Assembly: GCA_036376135.1 (NCBI GenBank) | Contig: DASVAW010000030.1 | Span: forward strand, 1 to 35,670 | Source of the DNA: Candidatus Polarisedimenticolaceae bacterium | Lineage (GTDB): Bacteria; Acidobacteriota; Polarisedimenticolia; Polarisedimenticolales; DASRJG01 | Direction: 5' to 3' | Length of the DNA: 35,670 bases | Shown here: piece after piece, positions 8,272-35,530 of the stretch | Layout: each line of letters opens with the position of its first letter | How positions within the stretch are numbered: position 1 is the first letter of the stretch | Notes under the pieces: generated by a model | Databases searched by the model: none | What the model saw: only the letters and a program-made list of their open reading frames with translations | What the model was told of the DNA's origin: nothing | Program-made: the position numbers and the translations under genes

Positions 8272-9177
8272 ATGCATCGAGGGATGAAACGGTACCGCCG
8301 CGGGACGGTCGCGCTGATCCTCGGGGCGGTCGTCGGACTCGCCGGACGGGCGAACGCCGAGGAGCCGCCGGTTTGCGCGACGTGCCACGCCGACCTCTAC
8401 GAGGGCATGGCGAAGGTGAAGCACGGGAACGGCGAGGACGCACGCACGCCGTTCGGCAGCGGCCGGGCCTGCGAGGCGTGCCACGGCGACGCCTCCAGGC
8501 ACGCGGAGGATCCCGCGTCGGCCAAGCCGGCCGTGCTCTTCGGCAGGGGGCGGAACGTCGACGCCCAGAACGCGGCCTGCATGAACTGCCACCAGGGCGG
8601 GAACCAGATGCATTGGGTGGGCAGCGCCCACGACCGCTCGAAGGTCGCCTGCGCCGACTGTCACGATCCCCACGCGGCGAAGGACCAGGTGCTCGTCAAG
8701 GAGACCCAGGCGGGCGTCTGCTCGAACTGCCACAAGGACGTCCGCGCCGACCTGTTCCGCACCTCGACGCACCCGCTGCGCAGCGGGACGATGACGTGCT
8801 CGAACTGCCACAACCCGCACGGCTCGATCGCCGAAGCGCAGCTCGTGAAGAACACCGTGAACGAGACCTGCGCGCAGTGTCACGCCGACAAGCGCGGCCC
8901 GTTCCTCTGGGAACACCCGCCGGCGCGCGAGAACTGCGCCGAGTGCCACAACCCGCACGGGTCGAACAATCCGCCGCTGCTCCGCGCGCGCGGCCCGTAC
9001 CTCTGCCAGCAGTGCCACGCCAACCCCAACCACCCCTCCACGCTCTACAGCGGCAACAACCTTCCCGGCGCTCCGTCCGGGACGAGCTTCGACAAGATGC
9101 TCGGATCCAGCTGCCTGAACTGCCATCCGAAGGTCCATGGCTCCAACCATCCTTCCGGTGCGCGGTTCACCCGCTGA
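8272..9177 (+). CDS. Decaheme c-type cytochrome, DmsE/MtrA family, 301 aa
   Basis: Ten CXXCH haem-binding motifs are present, with first Cys at residues 35, 67, 103, 127, 150, 176, 200, 222, 245 and 281. A signal peptide precedes them (ends near GRANA, residue 29), so the protein is periplasmic. The purine-rich GGAAGGAAGGG at 8256-8266 selects ATG 8272 over the internal ATG 8284. Length and haem number match MtrA/DmsE/PioA. In that family the cytochrome is plugged inside an MtrB barrel and passes electrons between periplasm and cell surface. The next gene, 19 bases on, is such a barrel, which supports the assignment strongly. Direction of electron flow (metal reduction or oxidation, DMSO-type respiration) cannot be read from sequence. 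Confidence 0.95.
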   Translation: MHRGMKRYRRGTVALILGAVVGLAGRANAEEPPVCATCHADLYEGMAKVKHGNGEDARTPFGSGRACEACHGDASRHAEDPASAKPAVLFGRGRNVDAQNAACMNCHQGGNQMHWVGSAHDRSKVACADCHDPHAAKDQVLVKETQAGVCSNCHKDVRADLFRTSTHPLRSGTMTCSNCHNPHGSIAEAQLVKNTVNETCAQCHADKRGPFLWEHPPARENCAECHNPHGSNNPPLLRARGPYLCQQCHANPNHPSTLYSGNNLPGAPSGTSFDKMLGSSCLNCHPKVHGSNHPSGARFTR

Positions 9178-9196
9178 GGCGCGACGGAGGCCACGC

Positions 9197-11551
9197 ATGT
9201 CGACCAACACGAAGATCCTCGGCGCCCCGGTCCTCGTGCTCGCGCTCGGCTGGGCCGTCGCGTCGGCCGAACCCCTGCAGCAGGTCCCGCTGTATCCCGA
9301 TGCGGACATGACCCGGTACTCCGGGAACAACGTCGAGCTCGGCGCCGTGTACACCACCGACGATGCGTACAAGTTCGGCGAATACACCGGCCTCACCGAC
9401 GAGGGCGCCTACGCGCTCCTGAACCTCTTCTGGGGCGGGAAGCTCGGCGGCCGCAACGCGTGGTCGGTAGCCGCGACGAATCTCGGACTCGATTCGCGAA
9501 GCGTCGGCGCGCGGTTCGGCGCCCAGGGAGTCTGGTTCGTCGACGCCGATTTCCTCCAGCTCAACCGCGCGCAGTGGAGCGACGCGCGGTTCATTCACGA
9601 CGGGCTCGGGGGCCCGGTGCTGACGCTCCCCGCGGCCTTCCCCGGCCTTCCCGGGCAGCCCCCGACCAGCGCCGCGTCGATCGACCCGTACCTCAAGACC
9701 TTCGCCATCGAGCAGGGACGCGACGTCCTGCGCTTCGGCGGTGGCTGGCACTTCGCCAAGGCCTGGGTCGCCGAGCTGGGCTGGCAGCAGCTCCGCCGCG
9801 ACGGCAATCGCATCATCGGCGCCGTGATCGGCAACTCCGGCGGCAACCCGCGCGCCGTGCTGGTCCCGTACGAGATCGACGACGGCACGTCGAGCGCCGA
9901 GGCGATCGTCCGCTACCGGGGCGAGAAGTGGCAGGCGAACTTCCTCTACACGAGGTCGGACTACGCGTCCGACTCGAACACGCTGCAGTGGGCCAACCCG
10001 TACAACACCATCTCCGGCTGGAGCGCCGCCGCAGGATTCGAGGCGGGCGGTCAGGGGTTGCTCGAGCTGTATCCCGACAACGCGTACGAGCACTGGCAGG
10101 CGACCGGCGGGTTCAACTTCAACCGGAACCACCGGATCACCGGCACCGTCGCGTTCTCCACGCTCACCCAGAACGACGCGTTCCGGCCGTACAGCGTCAA
10201 CCCGGATCTGTATCCCACGCCGGCGACGGCGCTTCCGCGCACCTCGCTCGACGGGGAGATCCAGCACGCCCTCTACGACGTCGCCTACGTCGGCAAGTTC
10301 GCGAAGAACATCACGATCCGCGCGAGCGTGCACGCGAGCGAACACGACAACAACACGCCGACGGCGCAGTACCTCTACATCGGCGGCGACTCGCTGATCC
10401 AGGATGCGAGCCCGGTCGGCTCGAGCCGCGCGCGCGTCAACGTGGCGCTCGGAGGCTCGGAGACCCGCTGGCGCCTCGGCGCCGACTGGGCGTTCGCGCC
10501 CCGGTGGCTCGTCCGCGGCGAATACGAGACCAAGAAGGTCGAGTACGAGCCGGCGGAGGGGGAGCTGCGCGCGGAGACCACGACCGACCGCTTCGATCTC
10601 GAGGTGCGCCGGACCATGTCCGAGTTCTTCACGGGGTCGGTCCGCTACTCCGTCTCGGAGCGGACGGGTTCGGACCACGACAACGCCCGGCCGTTCGCCG
10701 AAGGGTACGAGCCGACGTATGTCGCCGCGACCCTCTACGACAACCTCCCGACGCTTCGGCAGTATTACGTGAGCGACTACGATCGCGAGCAGGTCCGCGT
10801 GATGGGGACGATCACCCCCTCGGACAAGATCGCAATCCAGCTCTACTTCGATCGCTACGCGCTCGACCATGGGGGGCCGGACTGTGGCGGCCCGAACGAC
10901 CAGGTCCTTCTGGGCGTCGTGCCCGCGTACACGTTCCCGTCGCAATGCCAGGGGCGCACGGCCGCGGACGGCGAGTCGTGGACCGCCGACATCCAGTGGA
11001 CGCCGGTGAAGTCGTGGTCGGCGTATGCGTTCTACACGAACTCCGAATACGTGAACGACCAGGCCGGTCGGCAGTATTCGGGGAATCCGGCCGCGACCGC
11101 GAAGTATCCCCAGAGCACGAGCACGAACCGCAACTGGTTCGTGAATCTCGACTACACCGACAAGACCCTGGGCGTGGGCCTGGGATTCCATCCGGAGGGG
11201 GCGAGGTTCGACGGCGGCGTCCAGTACGTCGGCAACGACGGCCGCGGCGCCACGACGCAGGTCGTGGACGCGAACTGGACCGTCGCGGCCCCCGATGTTC
11301 CGGCCCTCGCGGCGCCGACGCCCGTGCCCGATACGGTCGCCAGGTTGCAGTCGTGGCAGGCGTTCGGCCGGTGGAAGCTCGGCGCGGCCTTCGCCCTGCG
11401 GATCAACTACTGGTACGAGAGGCTCGACCAGAAGGACTGGGCGTACGACAACGCGACCCCGACCTCGTCCAACAACGTGATCCTCAACGGCCAGGCGACC
11501 CCGAACTACTCGAACAACGCCGTCGCCGTTTCCCTCGCCTGGACGAGATAG
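9197..11551 (+). CDS. MtrB/PioB-family outer-membrane beta-barrel, 784 aa
   Basis: The start is ATG 9197 (MSTNTKILGAPV), 6 bases after GGAGG. A signal peptide ends near VASA and the rest is a large barrel of alternating aromatic/polar strands ending in SLAWTR. The mature N-terminus (YSGNNVELGAVYTTDDAYKFGEYTGL) and the AYALLNLFWGG segment are typical of MtrB/PioB. It forms the sheath through which the decaheme cytochrome upstream crosses the outer membrane. The N-terminal CXXC of Shewanella MtrB is absent. No surface cytochrome of the MtrC/OmcA type follows. The gene ends against a terminator-like palindrome. Confidence 0.93.
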   Translation: MSTNTKILGAPVLVLALGWAVASAEPLQQVPLYPDADMTRYSGNNVELGAVYTTDDAYKFGEYTGLTDEGAYALLNLFWGGKLGGRNAWSVAATNLGLDSRSVGARFGAQGVWFVDADFLQLNRAQWSDARFIHDGLGGPVLTLPAAFPGLPGQPPTSAASIDPYLKTFAIEQGRDVLRFGGGWHFAKAWVAELGWQQLRRDGNRIIGAVIGNSGGNPRAVLVPYEIDDGTSSAEAIVRYRGEKWQANFLYTRSDYASDSNTLQWANPYNTISGWSAAAGFEAGGQGLLELYPDNAYEHWQATGGFNFNRNHRITGTVAFSTLTQNDAFRPYSVNPDLYPTPATALPRTSLDGEIQHALYDVAYVGKFAKNITIRASVHASEHDNNTPTAQYLYIGGDSLIQDASPVGSSRARVNVALGGSETRWRLGADWAFAPRWLVRGEYETKKVEYEPAEGELRAETTTDRFDLEVRRTMSEFFTGSVRYSVSERTGSDHDNARPFAEGYEPTYVAATLYDNLPTLRQYYVSDYDREQVRVMGTITPSDKIAIQLYFDRYALDHGGPDCGGPNDQVLLGVVPAYTFPSQCQGRTAADGESWTADIQWTPVKSWSAYAFYTNSEYVNDQAGRQYSGNPAATAKYPQSTSTNRNWFVNLDYTDKTLGVGLGFHPEGARFDGGVQYVGNDGRGATTQVVDANWTVAAPDVPALAAPTPVPDTVARLQSWQAFGRWKLGAAFALRINYWYERLDQKDWAYDNATPTSSNNVILNGQATPNYSNNAVAVSLAWTR

Positions 11552-18393: not shown

Positions 18394-18452
18394 GGCGGTT
18401 CTCCGGGTTGAAGGTTCCCCGCAGAGATGCCGTCCGCCGCCGCGTCGTTTCG

Positions 18453-19040
18453 CTAGAACGCGGAAACCTCCTTCTGCCCCTCCCTCGGAAGCCGGAGGTA
18501 GACCTCCGTATCGGCTTCCGCGCACACCTCGCCGGCGACGTCGGTCGCCACGACCCGGTGCGCTCGCGCGAAGCGACCCCCGCTTCGCAGCGCGGAGACG
18601 GCGTCCTCGACGTCCGCCTCGCCGATCTCGAAGGAGATCGTCAGCGCGGTCCTGGCCGGCTTCACGTAGCGGATCGACGCGCCGCGCAGCCACGCCTGCA
18701 CGCGCAGGCCGCGGTGGGCGAGGATCTGCCAGTAGAGGATCGCGCACACGGGGTCGAAGGCGGCGAAGACCGTCCCTCCGAAGGTGGAACCGTTGAGGTT
18801 CCTCGTGAGCAATCCGCGGCGGACCCGCACCGTCGCGCGCCGGAAGTCGGGCGAGATCGAGACGATCCGGATCCCCTGGAGCAGCCACGGCGGGAACAGA
18901 TTCAGCACCCACTTCACCTGCCGGGGCGAGAGGGCGCGGGGCGGGCGCGGGGCGCTCACGGCAAGGGCGTCGGTTCGTGAGGCCGATCGAAGCCCCTCGC
19001 GGCTGGCTCCCCGACGACGCCGACGCACGGTCGCATGCAC
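18453..19040 (-). CDS. DUF4442 hotdog-fold protein, possible thioesterase, about 195 aa
   Basis: From about residue 45 on it reads as a DUF4442 protein: SPRQVKWVLNLFPPWLLQGIRI, LLTRNLNGSTFGGTVFAAFDP, then strands of a hotdog fold such as that of PaaI-type thioesterases. GTG 19040 is chosen because AGGAAGGGAG lies directly upstream; its first 40 residues are basic and may not belong, and a shorter form starting at GTG 18959 has no ribosome-binding site. Members are often annotated as YiiD C-terminal-like or thioesterase; the substrate is unknown. Confidence 0.75.
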   Translation of the reverse strand: MHATVRRRRRGASREGLRSASRTDALAVSAPRPPRALSPRQVKWVLNLFPPWLLQGIRIVSISPDFRRATVRVRRGLLTRNLNGSTFGGTVFAAFDPVCAILYWQILAHRGLRVQAWLRGASIRYVKPARTALTISFEIGEADVEDAVSALRSGGRFARAHRVVATDVAGEVCAEADTEVYLRLPREGQKEVSAF

Positions 19041-19756: not shown

Positions 19757-20437
19757 TCAGGTCCGCAGGGTGAAGGGGTTGAAGTCGGTGTCGCGGTCGT
19801 AGTAGTCCTCGCTTTCGGCGCGCTTCAGCCACCCGACGATCTTGTAGGTGACCGGCGTCGCGAGGGCCTCCCAGGCGCACTTGATCAGGTAGTTCGTCGC
19901 CATCACCTGGAGGACGAGCTCCGGGGGCCAGGTTCCCAGGAAGGCGACCGAATAGAAGATGAGCGAGTCGGCGGCCTGGCCGACGAGGGTCGAGCCGATC
20001 GTGCGCTGGTAGAGCCGCCGCCCCTGCGAGAGGATCTTGAGCTTCGCGAGGACGTAGGAATTGCAGAACTCGCCGGCCCAGAAGCCGAGCAGCGATGCCA
20101 GCACGATCCGCCACGTCGAGCCGAGCGCGGTTTCATAGGCCGCCTGGTGCGGCCAGTCGGCGGCCGGCGGGAAGGCGAGCACGACGAACGACATGAACGA
20201 CGCGAAGGCGAGGGCGGCGAACCCCGCCCAGACCGCCCGTCGGGTGCGCGCGTACCCGTACACCTCGGTCAGGACGTCGCCGAAGATGTAGGAGACGGGG
20301 AAAAAGAGCACGCCGGCGCCGAACTTCACATCGCCGATCTGCGCGATCTTGGCGGGGCCGATCAGGTTCGCGCACAGGAGGACCGTGACGAACGCGGCCA
20401 TCACGAAGTCGTAGTAGCGGTATCGTCGTTCGGTCAC
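19757..20437 (-). CDS. yhhQ: VUT-family transporter, queuosine-precursor (preQ0/preQ1) type, 226 aa
   Basis: The frame begins at GTG 20437 (TERRYRYYDFVMAAFVTVLLC), after a G-rich stretch. About six hydrophobic helices and the family signatures FPVSYIFGDVLTEVYGYARTRRAVWAGF and GEFCNSYVLAKLK are present, and its length matches YhhQ (221 aa). The family imports 7-deazaguanine precursors for queuosine in tRNA. No queuosine synthesis gene lies nearby and no preQ1 riboswitch was recognised upstream. Confidence 0.9.
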   Translation of the reverse strand: MTERRYRYYDFVMAAFVTVLLCANLIGPAKIAQIGDVKFGAGVLFFPVSYIFGDVLTEVYGYARTRRAVWAGFAALAFASFMSFVVLAFPPAADWPHQAAYETALGSTWRIVLASLLGFWAGEFCNSYVLAKLKILSQGRRLYQRTIGSTLVGQAADSLIFYSVAFLGTWPPELVLQVMATNYLIKCAWEALATPVTYKIVGWLKRAESEDYYDRDTDFNPFTLRT

Positions 20438-20438
20438 G

Positions 20439-20466
20439 GAAACCCCCGGGAAACCGGCGGCACCCT
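20439..20466 (+). promoter_or_regulatory. Possible ECF-type promoter of msrA
   Basis: GAAACC (20439-20444), 16 bases, CACCCT (20461-20466), 20 bases before the msrA start. It is close to the pattern GAAACC-N16-CATCCC found before the sigma gene and the lipid operon, and the bases before the -10 (GCGG) also match. It is a variant, so less certain than those. Confidence 0.4.
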
Positions 20467-20486: not shown

Positions 20487-21143
20487 ATGTTCTCGAAGGA
20501 CCCAGGAAAGCTGCGCATCCCCGACACGACCCAGGCCCTTCCCGGACGGACCGCGCCGATGCGGATCACCGGGAAACACCTCGTCCTCGGAACGGTCATG
20601 AAACCCCCATTTCCGGCCGGTTTCGAGCAGGTGCAGGTCGGCCTCGGCTGCTTCTGGGGAGCGGAGCGGAAGTTCTGGCAGCTCCCCGGCGTCCACACGA
20701 CCGCGGTCGGGTACTCGGGGGGGCTCACTCCCAACCCCGACTACGAGGAGGTCTGTTCCGGCCTGACGGGACATGCCGAGACGGTCCTCGTCGTCTACGA
20801 CCCGGCGAAGGTCTCCTTCGACGAGATCCTGCGCGTCTTTTGGGAGAGCCATGACCCCACGCAGGGGATGCGTCAGGGAAACGACCGCGGCACGCAGTAC
20901 CGCTCCGCGATCTATGCCTATTCCGACGCGCAGCTCCGGGTCGCCGAGGCCTCCCGCGACGCCTACCAGGCGAAGCTCGCCGAGGCGGGATACGGCGCCA
21001 TCACGACGGAAATCCGGGAGGCGCCGGAGTTTTACTACGCCGAGGACTACCACCAGCAGTACCTCGCCAAGAACCCGAACGGGTACTGCGGGCTGGGCGG
21101 GACCGGGGTGACCTGCCCGATCGGCGTCGCGAAGGCCACCTGA
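20487..21143 (+). CDS. msrA: Peptide methionine-(S)-S-oxide reductase MsrA, 218 aa
   Basis: The catalytic GCFWG motif is at residues 54-58 (Cys55), followed by [31 protein letters not shown] and EDYHQQYL, all hallmarks of MsrA. A second Cys near the C-terminus ([13 protein letters not shown]) can act in recycling. It repairs oxidised methionine using thioredoxin. The ~45-residue N-terminal lead has no signal peptide, so it is cytoplasmic. GGAGGG precedes ATG 20487. It is divergent from the VUT gene and ends 4 bases from the convergent manC-like gene. Confidence 0.97.
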
Positions 21144-21147
21144 TCCG

Positions 21148-22116
21148 CTACGCCGCCCCGACCGCCGCCGCGAGCGTGACCGGCGCCACCGGGTAGCGCA
21201 TCGCCGCGGCGATCGGCGTCGGCTTCGGCCAGCGCCGCACGCACTCCGCCAGCCGATCCGGGGTCCCGAGATCGCTCCATCCGCAGAACGGAACGGTCAC
21301 GAGGCGCAGGCGGTCCTCCGATCCCTGCAGGAGCTCGCGGGAGAAGTCGGACGTCGGGATCGACGCATAGAGACGCGCCAGGGCGACCCCATCCAGCGAA
21401 CCGTCGGAGCGGCGCGGCGCCAGGGCGAGTGCGTGGAGCAGCGACGGCCGGCGCCGGAGGTAGAGCGCCTTCAGCGCGGGTCCCTTCGCGACCATCAGGA
21501 AGGAGTTCCACACGCCGCCGCGGCGCATCAGCTCCGCGGCGAACGTCGCATCCGGCTTCTCCACGAACGCCTTCACGCGGAAGGAGCCGTCGGTCGCCTC
21601 GTTCCCCGGGACGATCCACCCGTACTCCGAGTCGGGGGCGTCCGGTTCGATCCCCAGCAGCACGATGCCTTCCGGATCGCGCCGGACCTCGTCGAGCCCG
21701 CGCCGCAGCGCGCGGGCCATCACCGCCTCGTCGGCGACGAAATGGTCCGAGGGGAGCATCACGACGGTCGCGTCGGGATCGCGGCGCAGGATCTCGAGCA
21801 GGGGCAAGAGCACCCCCGCCGCGGTGCCGCGGTTGAGCGGCTGGGCGACGACGTTCTCCTCCGGGAGCTCGGCGAGCTCGTCCCGCCACCAGAGCCGGTG
21901 CTCCTCGGCGACGATCGCGAGCGTGCGCTCCGGGGGGGCGATCCGCGCGGCGCGGGAGAGGGCGTCCTGAAGGAGGGACGGTCCTCCGGCGAGCGAGCAG
22001 AACTGCTTGGGAACCGACGCGCCGTTCCCCAACCGCGTCAGCCCGCTCAGCCGCGTGCCCGACCCCGCGGCCAGCACCAGCGCCCACGTTTCGCCTCGAC
22101 CTCGTGCCAGTCTCAT
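21148..22116 (-). CDS. Mannose-1-phosphate guanylyltransferase-like sugar nucleotidyltransferase, 322 aa
   Basis: The N-terminus carries the nucleotidyltransferase signature LAAGSGTRL (residues 15-23) and VPKQFCSLAGG (35-45), followed by QPLNRGTAAGVLLPL, LPSDHFV, YGWIVPG, FVEKPD and WNSFLMVAK. These fit the ManC/GDP-mannose pyrophosphorylase family, which makes GDP-mannose from mannose-1-phosphate and GTP. The bifunctional isomerase tail is absent. GGGAGG precedes ATG 22116. It lies 16 bases after the NDH-2-like gene on the same strand and is probably co-transcribed with it. Use of the product (polysaccharide, glycan) is unknown. Confidence 0.85.
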   Translation of the reverse strand: MRLARGRGETWALVLAAGSGTRLSGLTRLGNGASVPKQFCSLAGGPSLLQDALSRAARIAPPERTLAIVAEEHRLWWRDELAELPEENVVAQPLNRGTAAGVLLPLLEILRRDPDATVVMLPSDHFVADEAVMARALRRGLDEVRRDPEGIVLLGIEPDAPDSEYGWIVPGNEATDGSFRVKAFVEKPDATFAAELMRRGGVWNSFLMVAKGPALKALYLRRRPSLLHALALAPRRSDGSLDGVALARLYASIPTSDFSRELLQGSEDRLRLVTVPFCGWSDLGTPDRLAECVRRWPKPTPIAAAMRYPVAPVTLAAAVGAA

Positions 22117-22132: not shown

Positions 22133-23449
22133 TCAGCCGTGATGCGCGGCCTCGAGGGCCGGTTTCGGTTTCGTCTCCGGTTTCACGGCGTCGACGTCGA
22201 GGTACTGCACCAGGTCCTTCGAGAAGAACAGGTCGAGCGTCCAGTCGAGCGCGACGCGCAGCTTCTTCTCGAAGCGGGGAAGCTTCGAGAGATAAATCGT
22301 GCGCCACATCCACCACGCGAGAAAGCCGGAGAAGTTCACGCCGAGAATCCGCGCGACACCCGTGCGTCGGCCGATCGAGGCGAGAAGTCCGAGCGTCGCG
22401 AAGGTGAAGGGGCGGAGGGCTTCTCCGCGGATCGACGCGGCGACGTTGCGGGCGAGCGTGCGCCCTTCGCGGATCGCGTGCTGCGCGGTGGGGGGATGGA
22501 AGCCCCCCGTGCCGTCGGGGACCGACGCCGCGTCGCCCACCGCCCAGACCCCGGGGTGGCCCGGGACGCGAAGGTATGGGTCCACGAGCACGCGCCCGCG
22601 TTCCTTCATACAGGGAAGCTCCGCCAGCATCGGGTTCGCGGCGGTCCCCGCGGTCCACACGAGGGTGCGGGCCTCGACCGTCGTGCCGTCGGTGAGGCGG
22701 ACGAGGTCGCCCTCCACCCTCGAGACCCTGGCCGAGGTGCGGATCTCGACGCCGCGCTCGGCGAGTTTCCGCTGGGCGTACCGCCCGAGCTCGGGGCCGA
22801 GCTCGGGGAGCACCACCTCCTGCGAGTGGACGAGGACCATCCGGAGGTCCTCGCGCTTCACGTTCGGGTAGTGCGGGAGGGCCTCGCGGACGAAGTCGTT
22901 CATCGCCGCGATCGTCTCGACTCCCGCGAAGCCGCCGCCCGCGACGACGAAACCCAGCAACGGGCGCCGCTCGTCGCAGGCGCACTCGGTGTCCGCCTCC
23001 TCGAGGTGCGCGATCATCCGGTTCCGCAGGTGCATCGCGTCGGCGAGCGTCTTCATCGTCCGTGCGCGCTCGGCGACCCCGGGAAGGCCGAAGAAGTTCG
23101 TGACCGAGCCGAGGGCGAGCACGAGGTGGTCGCAGGTGACCTCGTGTTCGTGACCGTCGGAGCCGTGGCGGAGCACCGCCGTCTTCGAAGGAAGGTCCAC
23201 GCGGACGACATCCCCCTCGAAAAACTTCACGCGTCGGAGCAGCTTGCGCACCGGGCTGACGATGTTCGTCGGGTCGAGATCGCTCGCGGCGACCTCGTGC
23301 AGCATCGGCGTGAAGAGGAAGAAGTTCTCCCGGCCGACGAGGGTGATCTCGACGTCGGGGTCGCAGCCGATCGTGCGGTCGAGCTCGAGGGCGGTGTAGA
23401 TCCCGCCGAACCCTCCGCCGAGGATGAGAATCCTTGTCCTGGTCTTCAT
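22133..23449 (-). CDS. Type II NADH dehydrogenase-like FAD oxidoreductase, 438 aa
   Basis: ATG 23449 (MKTRTRILILGGGFGG) is chosen; the first FAD-binding GGGFGG is at residues 11-16, a second dinucleotide fold near residues 165-180 (VAGGGFAGVETIAAM), and the FAD-binding GDAAS near 305. The C-terminal 85 residues carry an amphipathic membrane-binding helix (FSGFLAWWMWRTIYLSKL) typical of NDH-2. It likely moves electrons from NADH to quinone at the inner face of the membrane. No Shine-Dalgarno sequence precedes the ATG. A predicted ECF promoter ends only 9 bases before it, so the mRNA would be nearly leaderless. Confidence 0.9.
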   Translation of the reverse strand: MKTRTRILILGGGFGGIYTALELDRTIGCDPDVEITLVGRENFFLFTPMLHEVAASDLDPTNIVSPVRKLLRRVKFFEGDVVRVDLPSKTAVLRHGSDGHEHEVTCDHLVLALGSVTNFFGLPGVAERARTMKTLADAMHLRNRMIAHLEEADTECACDERRPLLGFVVAGGGFAGVETIAAMNDFVREALPHYPNVKREDLRMVLVHSQEVVLPELGPELGRYAQRKLAERGVEIRTSARVSRVEGDLVRLTDGTTVEARTLVWTAGTAANPMLAELPCMKERGRVLVDPYLRVPGHPGVWAVGDAASVPDGTGGFHPPTAQHAIREGRTLARNVAASIRGEALRPFTFATLGLLASIGRRTGVARILGVNFSGFLAWWMWRTIYLSKLPRFEKKLRVALDWTLDLFFSKDLVQYLDVDAVKPETKPKPALEAAHHG

Positions 23450-23458
23450 GGCGGCGGT

Positions 23459-23486
23459 GGGATGCCGCGCCCGCGTCCCGGGATTC
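23459..23486 (-). promoter_or_regulatory. Predicted ECF sigma promoter of the NDH-2-like gene
   Basis: On the minus strand GAATCC (23486 to 23481), 16 bases, CATCCC (23464 to 23459). It is the mirror of the sigma-gene promoter, and together they form the perfect 11-bp inverted repeat 23458-23468/23507-23517. Start of transcription would be within a few bases of ATG 23449. Confidence 0.55.
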
Positions 23487-23488
23487 GC

Positions 23489-23516
23489 GAAACCGGTTCG
23501 CCCGGAGCGGCATCCC
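23489..23516 (+). promoter_or_regulatory. Predicted ECF sigma promoter of the sigma factor gene (autoregulation)
   Basis: GAAACC (23489-23494), 16 bases, CATCCC (23511-23516), 42 bases before ATG 23559. The same boxes and spacing occur on the opposite strand here and on both strands at 30902-30974. GAAAC-type -35 boxes and 16-base spacing are usual for ECF sigma factors. Confidence 0.6.
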
Positions 23517-23558
23517 AGCTTCGAGTCGGCGCTCCGGGCGCCGAGGGAGGACGCCGGA

Positions 23559-24335
23559 ATGCTGGAGCCCCGGGCCGTCGGATTCTCCGTGACCCACATG
23601 GACGCGCTGGCGGCGTGGGCGATCTGGACCGGCGGGCTGGCCTGCGCGATGTGGACCGCGCACCGGGAACGGCGCCGCCGCGGCGATGCCGATCCGGCCT
23701 CGGGGTTCCCCGTCGGAGGGCCGGTCCCCTCGATCGAGGATCCCGCCGTCGACGCGGACGCCCTGCTCGTCCGACGACTCCGGGCGGGCGAACGGCGCGC
23801 CTTCGAGGACGTGGTCCAGCGCTACAGCGGCCGGATGCTGGCCGTCGCGCGGCGATTCGTCCGCGAGCCGGAGGATGCCCGCGACGTCGTCCAGGAGGCG
23901 TTCATCTCCGCATTCCGCAACTTCGACAGCTACCACGGCGAGGCGCGCCTTTCCACCTGGCTTCACCGGATCGTGGTGAACGCCGCGCTGATGCGGATCC
24001 GCAGCCGGAGCCGCAGGCCGGAGGAGTCGATCGAGGCGTTGCTCCCGAAGTTCGGCGAGGACGGCCACTCGGTGCAGCCCGCGCACCTCTGGGTCGAGAC
24101 GACCCACGAGAGCGTGGAGCGCGAGCAGCGCGCCGCGCTCGTGCGCCGCTGCATCGACGAGCTGCCGGATTCGTACCGGACCGTGCTGCTCATGAGGGAC
24201 ATCGAAGAGCTCGACACGGCCGAGACGGCGGCCCTGCTCGGGACGACCGAAAACGCCGTCAAGATCCGGCTCCATCGCGCGCGGCAGGCCCTTCGCGCCC
24301 TGTTGGACCCCCACCTGCGGAGGACGCGCGCATGA
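23559..24335 (+). CDS. ECF-family RNA polymerase sigma factor with hydrophobic N-terminal segment, 258 aa
   Basis: Region 2 spans about residues 67-140 (RRAFEDVVQRYSGRMLAVARRFVREPEDARDVVQEAFISAF) and region 4 about 190-248 (LPDSYRTVLLMRDIEELDTAETAALLGTTENAVKIRLHRAR), the helix-turn-helix that reads the -35 box. I chose ATG 23559 since GGGAGG lies 8 bases upstream; ATG 23598 lacks one. With either start the protein begins with a likely membrane helix (WAIWTGGLACAMWTA) followed by RERRRR, which is unusual for a sigma factor. Its stop overlaps the start of the anti-sigma gene (ATGA). Predicted ECF promoters here and at 30902-30974 suggest its regulon. Confidence 0.9.
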   Translation: MLEPRAVGFSVTHMDALAAWAIWTGGLACAMWTAHRERRRRGDADPASGFPVGGPVPSIEDPAVDADALLVRRLRAGERRAFEDVVQRYSGRMLAVARRFVREPEDARDVVQEAFISAFRNFDSYHGEARLSTWLHRIVVNAALMRIRSRSRRPEESIEALLPKFGEDGHSVQPAHLWVETTHESVEREQRAALVRRCIDELPDSYRTVLLMRDIEELDTAETAALLGTTENAVKIRLHRARQALRALLDPHLRRTRA

Positions 24336-27415: not shown

Positions 27416-28864
27416 TCAGCCGCTCCAGGCGGCGACGAGGCGGAGCACGTCGCGCGTCGTCGCGGGGCGCGATCCCCTCTCCACGTTCGCGCGGCCGATC
27501 TCGAAGGCAAGCCGCCACTGCGCGAACAACGTCCTCCACGCGCGGACGACTCCGTGGCGCGGGTCGTAGATGTGCGTCGACTCGGAGAGGACGCCGTTGA
27601 GCTCGAGGATCTTCAGGTTGCGCCCGGCGAGCAGATCCGCCTCGGTCGGGGCGCGCAGGTCGAACCGCCCGAAATGGAAGCCACGGACGCCGCGGGCGAT
27701 CGCGTCGATCGCCGCGATGAGCTCCGGAGTCGCGAACCGCGCGCCGTCGAGGAAGATCGCGCCGCGGCAGTGATTGCCGATCGTCGCCAGCGGGACGCGC
27801 TCGCCATCGGGAGGGATCTCCTCCAGGCGGTCGGCGAGTCGCTCGAGGTAGATCCCCGCCATCGCGACGGCGCGCGGATCGTCCAGCACGAGCGCTTCGA
27901 TGCTGCGGCGGCCGTCGCCGGTGACGAACGGGAGCCTCTTCTCGGTGATCGAGATCACGCGGTCGTCGGCCCAGAACACCCCGAGCTCGGGCCCTTCGAC
28001 GTACTCCTGGATCAACACGTCGCGCGTCGCCTCACGCAACGCGCGGTCGAGCGCCTCGCGGTCGCGCGCGATCACGACCCCCTCGCCGCGCTCGCCGACA
28101 TCGGGCTTCACGACGACGGGGAACTCCGCGGTGTCGGCGGTGCGAAAGGCGGCGATCGGGGCGCCCGACGCGGCGAGCCCCTCGAGGATGGCGCGTTTGG
28201 ACTCGCCGACCAGCCCTCCCGCGGGAAACGCCGGGTTGGCGGCGGTGAAGACCCAGAGCGAACGGTGCTTCAGGGCGAGCCAGGCGACCCAGGCGATGAC
28301 CGGCGGGTAGAACAGACACCGGGGCCAGAACTCCCACCGCGTCCACCGGCGCCAGAAGCCGACGAGCGCGCGCCTTCCCCTCCAGGTGGCGAGCCGCGTC
28401 GCGACGACGAGGGCGAGCGCTCCGAGGACGAAGGCGACCGGAGAAGGCACCGGCAGGGAAGCCGACGCACCCACGAGCAACGGCACCCACACGACCGCTC
28501 CGAGGAGCATCAGAAGGGAGACGCGTACGAGGCTTTCCGCCAGGAGCCCCGAGGCCACGTAGGTCGGAAGACGCATCCCCGGCACGAAGCGCGCGACGAG
28601 GATCGCGGCGTCGCCGCGCCGCGCGAACCAGAGTTCGGCGCGCCGCCAGGCGTCGGCGCGGATGCGGCGCCGAAGCCACGCGCGCCCCGCGCCCCGTCCG
28701 GCGAGCGCCAGCGCGACGTCCCCGACCCAGATGCCGAGCAGGCACGCCAGCGTCGCGGGGAAAAAGCCGAGCTCCCCTCGGGCGACGAGAACCCCCGCCG
28801 CGATGCAGGCGAGGTCCTCGCTCGCCAGCGTGAATAGGGCGAGGCCCGCCAGCAGCGCGGTCAT
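27416..28864 (-). CDS. DedA (VTT) membrane protein fused to an ATP-grasp ligase-like domain, 482 aa
   Basis: The N-terminal ~165 residues are a DedA/VTT membrane domain: E16DLACIAAG, and ARFVPGMRLPTYVASG (91-106) with the family's R92-F-x-P-x-x-R98 signature. A further hydrophobic stretch follows (185-200). From about residue 205 to 440 it reads as ATP-grasp: VVKPDVGERGEGVVI (251-265, Lys253), QEYVEGPE (286-293), and D402, E421 and N423 (FDLRAP, LKILELNG) as likely magnesium ligands. ATP-grasp enzymes join a carboxylate to an amine or other nucleophile; DedA proteins act in lipid-carrier or lipid flipping. It ends the ornithine-lipid operon; start overlaps the DinB stop by 4 bases. Product unknown. 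Confidence 0.85.
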   Translation of the reverse strand: MTALLAGLALFTLASEDLACIAAGVLVARGELGFFPATLACLLGIWVGDVALALAGRGAGRAWLRRRIRADAWRRAELWFARRGDAAILVARFVPGMRLPTYVASGLLAESLVRVSLLMLLGAVVWVPLLVGASASLPVPSPVAFVLGALALVVATRLATWRGRRALVGFWRRWTRWEFWPRCLFYPPVIAWVAWLALKHRSLWVFTAANPAFPAGGLVGESKRAILEGLAASGAPIAAFRTADTAEFPVVVKPDVGERGEGVVIARDREALDRALREATRDVLIQEYVEGPELGVFWADDRVISITEKRLPFVTGDGRRSIEALVLDDPRAVAMAGIYLERLADRLEEIPPDGERVPLATIGNHCRGAIFLDGARFATPELIAAIDAIARGVRGFHFGRFDLRAPTEADLLAGRNLKILELNGVLSESTHIYDPRHGVVRAWRTLFAQWRLAFEIGRANVERGSRPATTRDVLRLVAAWSG

Positions 28865-29388
28865 CGGGCCGCCGCCGACTCCCAGTGGCGAAGGGTCGAG
28901 GGGGCCACGCCGAACTCCTCGGGGGGCTCGATCCCGAAGCTCCGGAGGAACACCGCGACCAGGGCGTAGTGGTGGATCGTGTGGCTCAGCAGCGCGTCGA
29001 TCTCGCGGCCGACCGAGCTCACCGCGTCGCGCGTGCTTCCCTCTCCGCGGGCCCGCAGGCCGCGGTCCGGCGCGCGAGCTTCCGTCGACTCCAGCCGGTC
29101 GGCGAGATCGTCCATGCGTCGCGCCGCCTCGCCGGGAGACGACTCGAACCCCGCGTCGCGGCGACGGCTCTCGTAGTCGATGCGGCCGGCCGCCGCGCCG
29201 TCGAGGAACGCCTCGTAGAACTCCGCGACGTGCCGGAGGTGCTTGCCGATCGTGCCGCCGGGGAGCATCGGCAACGTGGACGTGAACTGCTCGGCGGGGA
29301 GGGAGCGTGCGATCGCGGCCCCCTGCCGGAGCAGCGCCGCATTCAGGAGAAGGCCGCTCTCCGGTGCAGCTGTCGAACCGTCGTGCAC
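28861..29388 (-). CDS. DinB-like four-helix protein, 175 aa
   Basis: GTG 29388, with GGAGG just upstream, starts HDGSTAAPESGLLLNAALLRQG and overlaps the end of the acyltransferase gene by 46 bases. The protein is all helical with the His residues of a DinB-type metal site (GKHLRHVAEFYEAF and LLSHTIHHYALVAVFLRSFG). DinB proteins include thiol-dependent transferases and many of unknown role. Its place between OlsA-like and DedA-ATP-grasp suggests a part in lipid head-group chemistry, which is inference. Confidence 0.8.
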   Translation of the reverse strand: MHDGSTAAPESGLLLNAALLRQGAAIARSLPAEQFTSTLPMLPGGTIGKHLRHVAEFYEAFLDGAAAGRIDYESRRRDAGFESSPGEAARRMDDLADRLESTEARAPDRGLRARGEGSTRDAVSSVGREIDALLSHTIHHYALVAVFLRSFGIEPPEEFGVAPSTLRHWESAAAR

Positions 29389-30101
29389 AAGGCCTCCGCG
29401 AGGACCTTGCGGTCCGCGTGGTGCCGCGCTCCGGGACCGAAGACGACCTTCGCCTCGAATCCCGGCAGCCGCAGCAGGTCGAAGAAGTGCCGGAGAAAGG
29501 TCATGTCGCCCCACCAGGCCACCGCTTCGCGGGCCGAAGGAGACCCCTCCGGCGTGCGGTAGGCGACGGCGCAGCAGGTGAGCGGAGCCGCGCCGGACGC
29601 CGCGGGCTCGAGGAGCGACGACTTGAACGGGAGCACCTGCGATCCGTCGGTACTCGTCCCCTCGGGAAACAACACGACGGAGCGGCCGTGCTCGAGGGCT
29701 CCGCGCATCGCGGCGGCGACCCGGCCGACGTCGGTGCGCCGCTCGCGGTCGATGAAGACGGTGTCCACGGCGCGGGCGAGGTAACCGATCACCGGCCACC
29801 GCGCGACCTCGGACTTGGCCACGAAGGCGCAGTCGGTCAGGGTGGCGAGGATCATCACGTCGATGTAGCTGACGTGGTTCGACACGAGCAGCGTCGCACC
29901 CCTCGGGACCTCTCCCTCGACCGAGACGGTGGCGCCGAAGATCCGGACGAGACCGCGCGACCAGAACCGCTGCACCCGCGCGTTCCACCTCGCGCGCGCC
30001 GATCCCGCGGTCACGACGTGCCCGGCGAACAGGACGAGGGCGACGCCGGCGGTGAACGCCGCGAAAAGCGCGGAGCGGAGCAGGGCGCGCATGAGGCTCA
30101 T
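29343..30101 (-). CDS. 1-acyl-sn-glycerol-3-phosphate/lyso-ornithine-lipid acyltransferase (PlsC/OlsA family), 252 aa
   Basis: The acyltransferase motif HX4D is at His76-Asp81 (NHVSYID), FPEG at 145-148 (LFPEGTSTDG), with an N-terminal membrane helix (about 10-30). PlsC enzymes pass a fatty acid to a lyso-lipid. The gene overlaps the stop of an OlsB-like N-acyltransferase gene by 4 bases; the OlsB-OlsA pair makes ornithine lipids in many bacteria, so here the acceptor is more likely lyso-ornithine lipid than lyso-phosphatidate. Confidence 0.9.
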   Translation of the reverse strand: MSLMRALLRSALFAAFTAGVALVLFAGHVVTAGSARARWNARVQRFWSRGLVRIFGATVSVEGEVPRGATLLVSNHVSYIDVMILATLTDCAFVAKSEVARWPVIGYLARAVDTVFIDRERRTDVGRVAAAMRGALEHGRSVVLFPEGTSTDGSQVLPFKSSLLEPAASGAAPLTCCAVAYRTPEGSPSAREAVAWWGDMTFLRHFFDLLRLPGFEAKVVFGPGARHHADRKVLAEALCTTVRQLHRRAAFS

Positions 30102-30877
30102 GCCCCCCGATTGTGGTCCGAAACGCCCGGCGCGAACAGGCGCAACACCGCCGGGTCCATCGCCGCGAGGTCGATCAGCATCAGGAAGTCGATCGTCTTG
30201 AACGCGCGGTCGATCGCGGGAGGGCCGCAGACCTTCGCGCCGTGGCGAAGGTAGGTGTGGAACAGGATCGGCAGGCGCACCGGCGCCAGCTCGCGCGAGC
30301 GCCCGTCGTCCTCGCAGGCGAACCCCGGGTTCGGCAGGACCTCGAACCCCGGGTGCTGATGTCCCGATCGCCGCAGGTCGGCAAGCGCCCGCAACCCCAC
30401 CGAAGGGTCCTGGCTCGTCAGCGACGAGCACCCGAAAAGGTAACGCTTGCCGTGGGCGAGGACGTATTCGGCCAGCCCGCGCCAGAGAAGGAAGAGCACG
30501 CGGCGGTTGCGGTACGGCTTCGCGATGCAGGCGCGACCGATCTCGACCGCCTCGTCGAGGATCCCGGCGGGGAGTCCCGCGAGGTCGAACTCCCCCGCCG
30601 CGTAGAAGCCGATGCCTTCGCGGGCGCGTTCGGGGGTCTGCAGGCGGTAGGTCCCGACGACCGCGCCGGTGGCGACGTCCTCGACGAGAAGGTGGTCGCA
30701 GAACGCGTCGAAGGGGTCTTCGTCGCGCCCCGTCTTCCACGAGGCGTCGAGCCCCTCGTCGAGCTCGAGGTTGAACACCTCGAAACGCAGCCGAAGCGCG
30801 GCGTCGACGTCGCGGGAGCCCCGCGCGAGGCGAACCCGATATCCCGAGGCAACGGCTTCGAGCGGCACGACGTGCAT
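30098..30877 (-). CDS. OlsB-like GNAT N-acyltransferase (ornithine-lipid first step), 259 aa
   Basis: ATG 30877 follows GGAGGA and starts MHVVPLEAVASGYRVRLA. The GNAT-like fold of the hemolysin/OlsB family is visible: LRFEVFNLELDEGLD, DPFDAFCDHLLVED, VVGTYRLQTPE, EIGRACIAKPYRNRRVLFLLWRGLAEY, YLFGCSSLTSQDPSVGLRAL. Family members join a 3-hydroxy fatty acid to the amino group of ornithine. It is the first gene of a four-gene operon with the PlsC/OlsA partner next. A predicted ECF promoter lies 25 bases before the start. Confidence 0.88.
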   Translation of the reverse strand: MHVVPLEAVASGYRVRLARGSRDVDAALRLRFEVFNLELDEGLDASWKTGRDEDPFDAFCDHLLVEDVATGAVVGTYRLQTPERAREGIGFYAAGEFDLAGLPAGILDEAVEIGRACIAKPYRNRRVLFLLWRGLAEYVLAHGKRYLFGCSSLTSQDPSVGLRALADLRRSGHQHPGFEVLPNPGFACEDDGRSRELAPVRLPILFHTYLRHGAKVCGPPAIDRAFKTIDFLMLIDLAAMDPAVLRLFAPGVSDHNRGA

Positions 30878-30901: not shown

Positions 30902-30929
30902 GCGATGCCGCCTGATGCGGGGTGGTTTC
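30902..30929 (-). promoter_or_regulatory. Predicted ECF sigma promoter of the ornithine-lipid operon
   Basis: On the minus strand GAAACC (30929 to 30924), 16 bases, CATCGC (30907 to 30902), 24 bases before ATG 30877. It differs in one base of the -10 from the promoters at the sigma gene. Confidence 0.5.
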
Positions 30930-30946
30930 ACGAACGCGACGAAAAC

Positions 30947-33989: not shown

Positions 33990-35530
33990 ACGACAACCGC
34001 TACGACGTCATCCTCATCGGCACCGGGGCGGGGGGCGGCACGCTCGCCTGGAAGCTCGCTCCCTCAGGGAAGCGCATCCTGATCCTCGAGCGCGGCGGCT
34101 ACGTCCCGCGCGAGAAGGAGAACTGGGACCCGAAGCTCGTCAACGTCGAAGGGCGTTACCAGGCGAAGGAGACCTGGTACGACCGGAACGGCAAGCCGCT
34201 GCACCCGCACACGAACTACTTCGTCGGCGGGAACACGAAGTTCTACGGCGCGGCGCTGTTCCGGATGCGCGAGCGGGACTTCGGAGCGTTGCGCCACGCG
34301 GGGGGCGTCTCCCCCGAGTGGCCGATCGCCTACGCCGACCTCGAGCCGTATTACACGCAGGCCGAGCGCCTCTACCAGGTCCACGGGGAGCGCGGCGTCG
34401 ATCCGACCGAGCCCGAAGCGTCGGCTCCGTACGCCTACGCGAAGGTCTCGCACGAGCCGCGGATCCAGAAGCTCCACGACGCCCTCGAGAAACTCGGGCA
34501 CCGGCCGTTCCACGTTCCGCTCGGGATCCGGCTCGACGAGTCCAACCCTCGGAAGAGCGCGTGCATCCGCTGCAACACCTGCGACGGCTTCCCTTGCCTC
34601 GTGCGCGCGAAATCCGACGCCGAGGTGATGGCGGTCGAGCCGGCGCTCCAGCACGCGGGCGTGACCCTGCTCACCGGCGCGTACGTCGAGCGCCTCGAAA
34701 CCGACGCGTCGGGACGTTCCGTCACGAGGGTGCACGTCGTGCGCGACGGCGAGCGCGAGGTCTACGAGGGCGGGATCGTCGTCGCCTCGTGCGGCGCGAT
34801 CAACTCCGCCGCGCTGCTCCTGCGCTCGGCGAACGACCGCCACCCGCAGGGGCTCGCCAACGGCTCCGGAATGGTCGGCCGCCACTACATGGGGCACACG
34901 AACTCCGTCCTGATGGCGATCTCGAAGGAGCCGAACGCAACCGTCTTCCAGAAGACCCTCGCGTTGAACGACTTCTACTTCGGCTCGAAGGAGTGGGACC
35001 ACCCCATGGGGCACATTTCCTTCGTCGGCAAGCTCGACGCAGAGACTCTGGCCGGCGGGGCGCCGCCGTTCGTGCCGGGGCTGACCCTCGACGTGATGGC
35101 GAAACACTCCCTCGACTTCTGGCTGACCTCCGAGGATCTTCCCGATCCCGACAACCGCGTCACCCTGAATCGCGACGGGAAGATCGTCCTCGCCTACACG
35201 CCGAACAACGAGGAAGGGCACAAGCGGCTGATCGCCAAGCTCAAGGACCTCCTCGGGCATCTCGACTGTCGCGAAACCCTGATTCCGAGAAACCTGTTCG
35301 TCGGGCAACGCATCCCGTTGGCGGGGGTCGCCCACCAGTGCGGGACCCTGCGGTTCGGCCACGATCCCGAGACCTCGGTGCTCGACGTGAACAACAAGGC
35401 CCACGAGCTCGACAACCTGTACGTGGTGGACGGGAGCTTCTTCCCGTCGAGCGGCGCGGTGAACCCGGCGCTGACGATCATGGCGAACGCGCTGCGCGTC
35501 GGGGATCACCTCCTGGAGCGGCTGTCGTGA
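33986..35530 (+). CDS. GMC-family FAD oxidoreductase with four-cysteine cluster, 514 aa
   Basis: The FAD-binding GTGAGGG lies at residues about 12-18 (VILIGTGAGGGTLAWKL, then LERGG). Central parts show YFVGGNTKFYGAALFRM, and the C-terminus carries the catalytic-site stretches HQCGTLRFGHD and VDGSFFPSSGAVNPALTIMANALRVGDHL with His and Asn. Residues C193, C196, C199 and C204 form a C-x2-C-x2-C-x4-C cluster, not part of the core GMC fold. The family oxidises alcohols or sugars. No signal peptide. Overlaps the aquaporin stop by 4 bases. Substrate unknown. Confidence 0.92.
   Translation: MNDNRYDVILIGTGAGGGTLAWKLAPSGKRILILERGGYVPREKENWDPKLVNVEGRYQAKETWYDRNGKPLHPHTNYFVGGNTKFYGAALFRMRERDFGALRHAGGVSPEWPIAYADLEPYYTQAERLYQVHGERGVDPTEPEASAPYAYAKVSHEPRIQKLHDALEKLGHRPFHVPLGIRLDESNPRKSACIRCNTCDGFPCLVRAKSDAEVMAVEPALQHAGVTLLTGAYVERLETDASGRSVTRVHVVRDGEREVYEGGIVVASCGAINSAALLLRSANDRHPQGLANGSGMVGRHYMGHTNSVLMAISKEPNATVFQKTLALNDFYFGSKEWDHPMGHISFVGKLDAETLAGGAPPFVPGLTLDVMAKHSLDFWLTSEDLPDPDNRVTLNRDGKIVLAYTPNNEEGHKRLIAKLKDLLGHLDCRETLIPRNLFVGQRIPLAGVAHQCGTLRFGHDPETSVLDVNNKAHELDNLYVVDGSFFPSSGAVNPALTIMANALRVGDHLLERLS

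Follow-up and report, generated by a model that had tools for sequence, protein, structure and literature searches.

Two abutting, divergent ECF-type promoters predicted between a sigma/anti-sigma operon and an NDH-2 gene

The window, by which we mean the whole of contig C30 (35.7 kb of a 4.38-Mb draft genome), contains a two-box signal between two divergent transcription units, an ECF sigma/zf-HC2 anti-sigma operon on the plus strand and an NDH-2 gene on the minus strand (Table 1). Read directly, the plus strand carries GAAACC-N16-CATCCC at 23489-23516 and the minus strand GAATCC-N16-CATCCC at 23486-23459; the distance from GAAWCC to CATCCC is exactly 16 nt on both strands, the two -35-like hexamers are separated by 2 bp, and the CATCCC on the NDH-2 side ends 9 nt ahead of the ATG. 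An earlier, sequence-only reading of this DNA had described these mirror-image boxes and a perfect 11-bp inverted repeat, the arms of which (23458-23468 and 23507-23517) match exactly, and its coordinates proved to be correct.

Table 1. Predicted genes and signals of the window, in order of position.
Feature	Position	Strand	Details
Secreted YHS-like protein, 150 aa	17941..18393	-	PF04945 at E=1e-6, just under its cut-off
Site before the YHS-like gene	18426..18453	-	GCGAAACG-N14-GGCATC; 32 nt upstream
Weaker candidate site, msrA	20437..20464	+	CGGAAACC-N14-GGCACC
Peptide methionine sulfoxide reductase MsrA	20487..21143	+	PF01625; TIGR00401 above cut-off
Mannose-1-phosphate guanylyltransferase-like nucleotidyltransferase	21148..22116	-	PF00483; TIGR01479 below its cut-off; 16 nt after NDH-2
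NDH-2-type NADH dehydrogenase	22133..23449	-	PF07992 and NDH2_C PF22366
Weaker candidate site, nucleotidyltransferase	22141..22168	-	CCGAAACC-N14-CGCATC; 24 nt before ATG; within the 3' end of NDH-2
Predicted ECF promoter, NDH-2	23458..23488	-	GCGAATCC-N14-GGCATCCCA; middle part CGGGACGCGGGCGC; same signal before NDH-2 orthologs
Predicted ECF promoter, sigma/anti-sigma operon	23487..23517	+	GCGAAACC-N14-GGCATCCCA; middle part GGTTCGCCCGGAGC; same signal before the L163 and L166 sigma genes
ECF sigma factor, 258 aa	23559..24335	+	Sigma70_r2, Sigma70_r4_2; TIGR02937 above cut-off; GGGAGGA ribosome-binding-like site before ATG
zf-HC2 anti-sigma-like protein, 83 aa	24332..24583	+	PF13490, HxxxCxxC motif; start overlaps sigma stop codon; pairing recurs in relatives
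OlsB-like N-acyltransferase	30098..30877	-	PF13444; NCBIfam OlsB models below cut-off
Site before the OlsB-like acyltransferase gene	30904..30931	-	GTGAAACC-N14-GGCATC; 26 nt from start at 30877

The sigma factor is a short protein with sigma2 and sigma4 regions only (Sigma70_r2 at 86-153, Sigma70_r4_2 at 194-245), as in group IV (ECF) of the sigma-70 family, and scores 100.9 bits against the TIGR02937 cut-off of 42.9. The overlapping zf-HC2 gene encodes its predicted cognate partner, an arrangement that recurs in most homologs; the sigma homologs of L010, L015 and L034 are not followed by a zf-HC2 gene. Several homologs of the subfamily have a STAS-like domain immediately upstream of sigma, and in L093 and L113 the two share one open frame. 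The sigma ORF of the window opens (23559-23700, +) with roughly 60 extra N-terminal residues, among which a moderately hydrophobic stretch, DALAAWAIWTGGLACAMWTA, is followed by RERRRRG. This extended start has a good ribosome-binding-like site in its support, yet most homologs begin later; the extra segment may anchor the protein in the membrane or may be an artefact of annotation.

Inverted repeats such as the one described above are common in this GC-rich window: 11-bp repeats with loops of 15-60 nt amount to seven arm pairs, five of them independent, and shuffled windows contain 0-6. The repeat is thus not above chance and was rejected as evidence in itself; it is the two-box signal that counts. 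GAAWCC-N16-CATCCC occurs three times in the genome, as the two intergenic boxes and as an exact match at 35289, which lies inside a coding sequence and was counted as chance. The fuller form, GCGAAWCC-N14-GGCATCCCA with zero mismatches, is found genome-wide only at the two intergenic sites. Raw counts of a looser core pattern (GAAWCS-N13/14-GGCATC) show no enrichment, being at background level in most genomes and similar in other relatives, and were rejected as evidence; the reversed-pattern control flattered the core (68 vs 11, 13 genomes). In the genome search that the earlier reading had proposed, the exact motif is almost confined to the sigma/NDH-2 intergenic site, and the looser core is not enriched. 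An automated comparison of promoter positions was not significant (21/69 vs 4/27, p=0.13), and a DNA search of relatives with the intergenic region returned nothing useful. The case depends on gene identity, conservation and co-occurrence.

To assess conservation, we scanned the 150 nt upstream of 80 NDH-2 orthologs (57-69% identity, from named genomes of many phyla) for GCGAAWCC-N13..15-GGCATC with at most two mismatches. The signal is present in 6 of the 80 upstream regions and in none of 80 equal-length coding controls, most orthologs being without it; reverse-strand matches were found in 4/80. One ortholog, that of L124, has the pattern with zero mismatches. Upstream of the sigma gene the signal is found in the window, L163 and L166 and is missing before most sigma homologs; those in related genomes have no signal upstream, and some have sigma-70-like -10 boxes near the start. 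Genes for a member of the window sigma's subfamily and for a zf-HC2 anti-sigma come after NDH-2 in L163, L166 and L130. Distant genomes thus also carry the boxes ahead of NDH-2 and sigma. Together with the co-occurrence of a sigma subfamily and the coherent gene families described below, this recurrence makes it extremely unlikely that the boxes are a chance likeness in a GC-rich intergenic region with the real promoters elsewhere, although the abundance of 11-bp repeats in the window and the background level of the core counts in most genomes would agree with that explanation.

The boxes co-occur with one sigma subfamily, defined by a threshold of E<=4e-51. Among genomes picked via the NDH-2 locus, the subfamily is present in five of the eight with the signal before NDH-2 and in none of the 22 without it (Fisher p=0.0004); the former proportion becomes 8/11 once loci picked for sigma linkage are included, with G397, G400 and G406 carrying the signal and no close sigma. 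With the window excluded, a word search recovered GAAAC-N16/17-CATC from 8 of 11 regions, compared with at most 5 after shuffling; this result is partly circular, since the signal or the sigma had guided the choice of most of these regions. This genome encodes three sigmas of the subfamily (that of C30 and the paralogs C110 and C120), and the sigmas from motif genomes do not form one clade; for these reasons, that the adjacent C30 sigma and not a paralog reads the boxes is something we infer. With three members of the subfamily in one genome, the boxes might be ECF promoters used by C110, C120 or several sigmas. We regard this as improbable, since the sigma's own gene has the signal before it in the window, L163 and L166, whereas C110 has no signal upstream (four mismatches at best) and C120 a weak one (two mismatches).

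Copies on both strands, with partner genes other than sigma, were found in L093, L159 and L164. The divergent gene in L093 is the start of a bufferin-like run (a BufA-like peptide, then an MbnB/TglH/ChrH-type enzyme), and its counterpart in both L159 and L164 codes for an aquaporin. The gap between paired -35 boxes is 12 bp in L093, 33 bp in L159, 11 bp in L164 and 2 bp in the window, and such variation argues for independent directional promoters instead of a fixed palindrome. The symmetry of the window's sequence, with near-palindromic arms of 32 nt around a central TTCGCGAA, would also suit an operator at which a dimeric regulator controls both genes. An operator is nonetheless highly unlikely, given that the signal is directional and stands singly before many genes, that the gap of paired copies ranges over 2-33 bp, and that the mismatches between the arms fall in the spacer, as two boxes would predict. 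The earlier proposal of two divergent ECF-type promoters is thus supported by recurrence in a single orientation, by the variable gaps of the pairs, by the sigma sites of L163 and L166 and by the co-occurrence of the sigma subfamily.

Only 6-10 nt separate the end of the -10 box from the NDH-2 ATG in the window, L124, L166, L093 and L159, and from this proximity we predict near-leaderless NDH-2 mRNAs. TANNNT-type -10 boxes lie 6-9 nt from the predicted ATG in the sigma homologs L007, L008, L009, L011 and L035, suggesting that leaderless transcripts are common in the group.

The core pattern has 13 matches in this genome, four of them in the 35.7-kb contig, where every one lies before a gene: those for sigma, NDH-2, the secreted YHS-like protein and the OlsB-like acyltransferase. 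This clustering has P=0.0035 with the two defining sites left out. A fifth promoter-like match, on C146, is upstream of a gene for an arsenosugar-associated peroxidase. The OlsB-like gene is the first of a minus-strand run (27416-30877) whose other genes encode a PlsC-like acyltransferase, a DinB-like protein and a VTT/ATP-grasp fusion; the site at 30931 may control the run as one stress operon. The weaker copies before the nucleotidyltransferase gene and msrA may be due to chance. The earlier reading had linked the guanylyltransferase-like gene to the sigma factor, which is plausible: the gene comes just after NDH-2 on the same strand and has a weaker signal copy of its own, and in G399 the signal is followed by a nucleotidyltransferase belonging to the Pfam family of the window's.

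Predicted targets in other genomes were assigned by promoter-position matches plus Pfam/NCBIfam, and by these annotations their families appear coherent: MsrA, bufferin, DoxX, arsenosugar-associated peroxidase and anti-sigma. In other bacterial phyla, too, the signal stands before genes for the repair of oxidised proteins and the handling of toxic metals. The signal precedes genes for MsrA in G399, G400 and G016; for bufferin-type peptides or BufB in G398, G402, G405 and G397; for DoxX in G402, G405 and G016; and, as on C146, for an arsenosugar-associated peroxidase in G016. In the genome of L130 it precedes two genes of the same contig, one for DoxX and one for a bufferin-like peptide. Other genes preceded by the signal encode glucose dehydrogenase (G399, G402), an ArsM-like methyltransferase, YceI and zf-HC2 anti-sigma. 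A DinB-like gene follows the signal in G018 and G029 and is homologous to that of the window's OlsB run.

We consider it probable that the boxes are two abutting, divergent ECF promoters read by the adjacent sigma factor in a small oxidative/metal-stress regulon. Each promoter would comprise GCGAAWCC, a 16-nt spacer to CATC and the extended -10 GGCATCCCA, with the -35 boxes abutting. For transcription from the boxes, the anti-sigma mechanism and the nature of the stress, we infer the following course. The zinc-finger anti-sigma would hold the co-encoded sigma inactive and would release it most likely under thiol-oxidising or metal stress. Free sigma would then drive its own operon rightward and NDH-2 leftward, transcription of the latter probably extending into the nucleotidyltransferase gene downstream. 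The sigma would also serve other sites, including the two in this contig before the genes for the YHS-like protein and the OlsB-like acyltransferase. Simultaneous binding of two polymerases at abutting -35 boxes is probably impossible, and the two directions may compete.

The nearest PDB sequences to the window's sigma are ECF sigmas of the RpoE/AlgU/SigW type, from which it differs in its -10 CATC. The -35 GAAAC is similar to the SigW -35. The anti-sigma has the ZAS motif in common with the zinc anti-sigmas RsrA and ChrR; neither window protein reaches the curated NCBIfam cut-offs for SigW, RpoE, RsrA or ChrR. Similar in function, in the sections of the published accounts drawn on here, are Neisseria sigma-E, which is autoregulated and has the ZAS anti-sigma NMB2145 (PMC2893595), and Haemophilus RpoE2/HrsE (PMC7907618); both have a methionine sulfoxide reductase target and, as in the window, a small zinc-type anti-sigma after sigma. 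The Neisseria promoter given there, GTMAGBWTT-N12/13-CGTCTAAH (PMC2893595), differs from the window's GCGAAACC-N14-GGCATC, and NDH-2, aquaporin and arsenosugar-associated genes do not appear in those sections (PMC2893595, PMC7907618). Caulobacter sigma-F/CC3252 (PMC3511200) and Sinorhizobium RpoE7 (PMC6180224) are ECF sigmas that drive themselves and DUF2282-DUF692-DUF2063 (bufferin) operons, the former also DoxX. The sigma-F promoter is GTAACC-N16-CGAA, in contrast to the window's CATC -10, and its anti-sigma is a membrane protein of the DUF1109 family, whereas that of the window is a soluble zf-HC2 protein. MsrA and/or bufferin-DoxX targets are found in the relatives, this genome having only the weak site before msrA. 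Because the promoters (and, for sigma-F, the anti-sigma) differ, we do not claim membership in the Neisseria sigma-E or Caulobacter sigma-F regulons; by analogy with these, the regulon looks like an example of a familiar general type, one that differs from them in its promoter and in having NDH-2.

In the open-access literature that we searched, neither this promoter nor any ECF regulon linked to NDH-2 is described. We give about even chances to a broader proposal, that the GCGAAACS-N13/14-GGCATC promoter class and one ECF/zf-HC2 subfamily make up an undescribed oxidative/metal-stress regulon in Acidobacteriota, Planctomycetota and other phyla; in it NDH-2, with near-leaderless mRNA, would stand alongside MsrA, bufferins, DoxX and arsenosugar-associated enzymes. 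If this is right, it would supply a promoter motif, a list of targets and a likely function for a sigma subfamily that is unstudied and whose hosts are mostly uncultured; NDH-2, a respiratory enzyme without proton pumping, would join a stress response of methionine repair and metal chelation; and such regulons would be predictable from the motif in many metagenome-assembled genomes. Elsewhere in the window, a plus-strand pair at 8272-11551 encodes a multihaem cytochrome and then an MtrB/PioB-type outer-membrane porin, a possible conduit for extracellular electron transfer.
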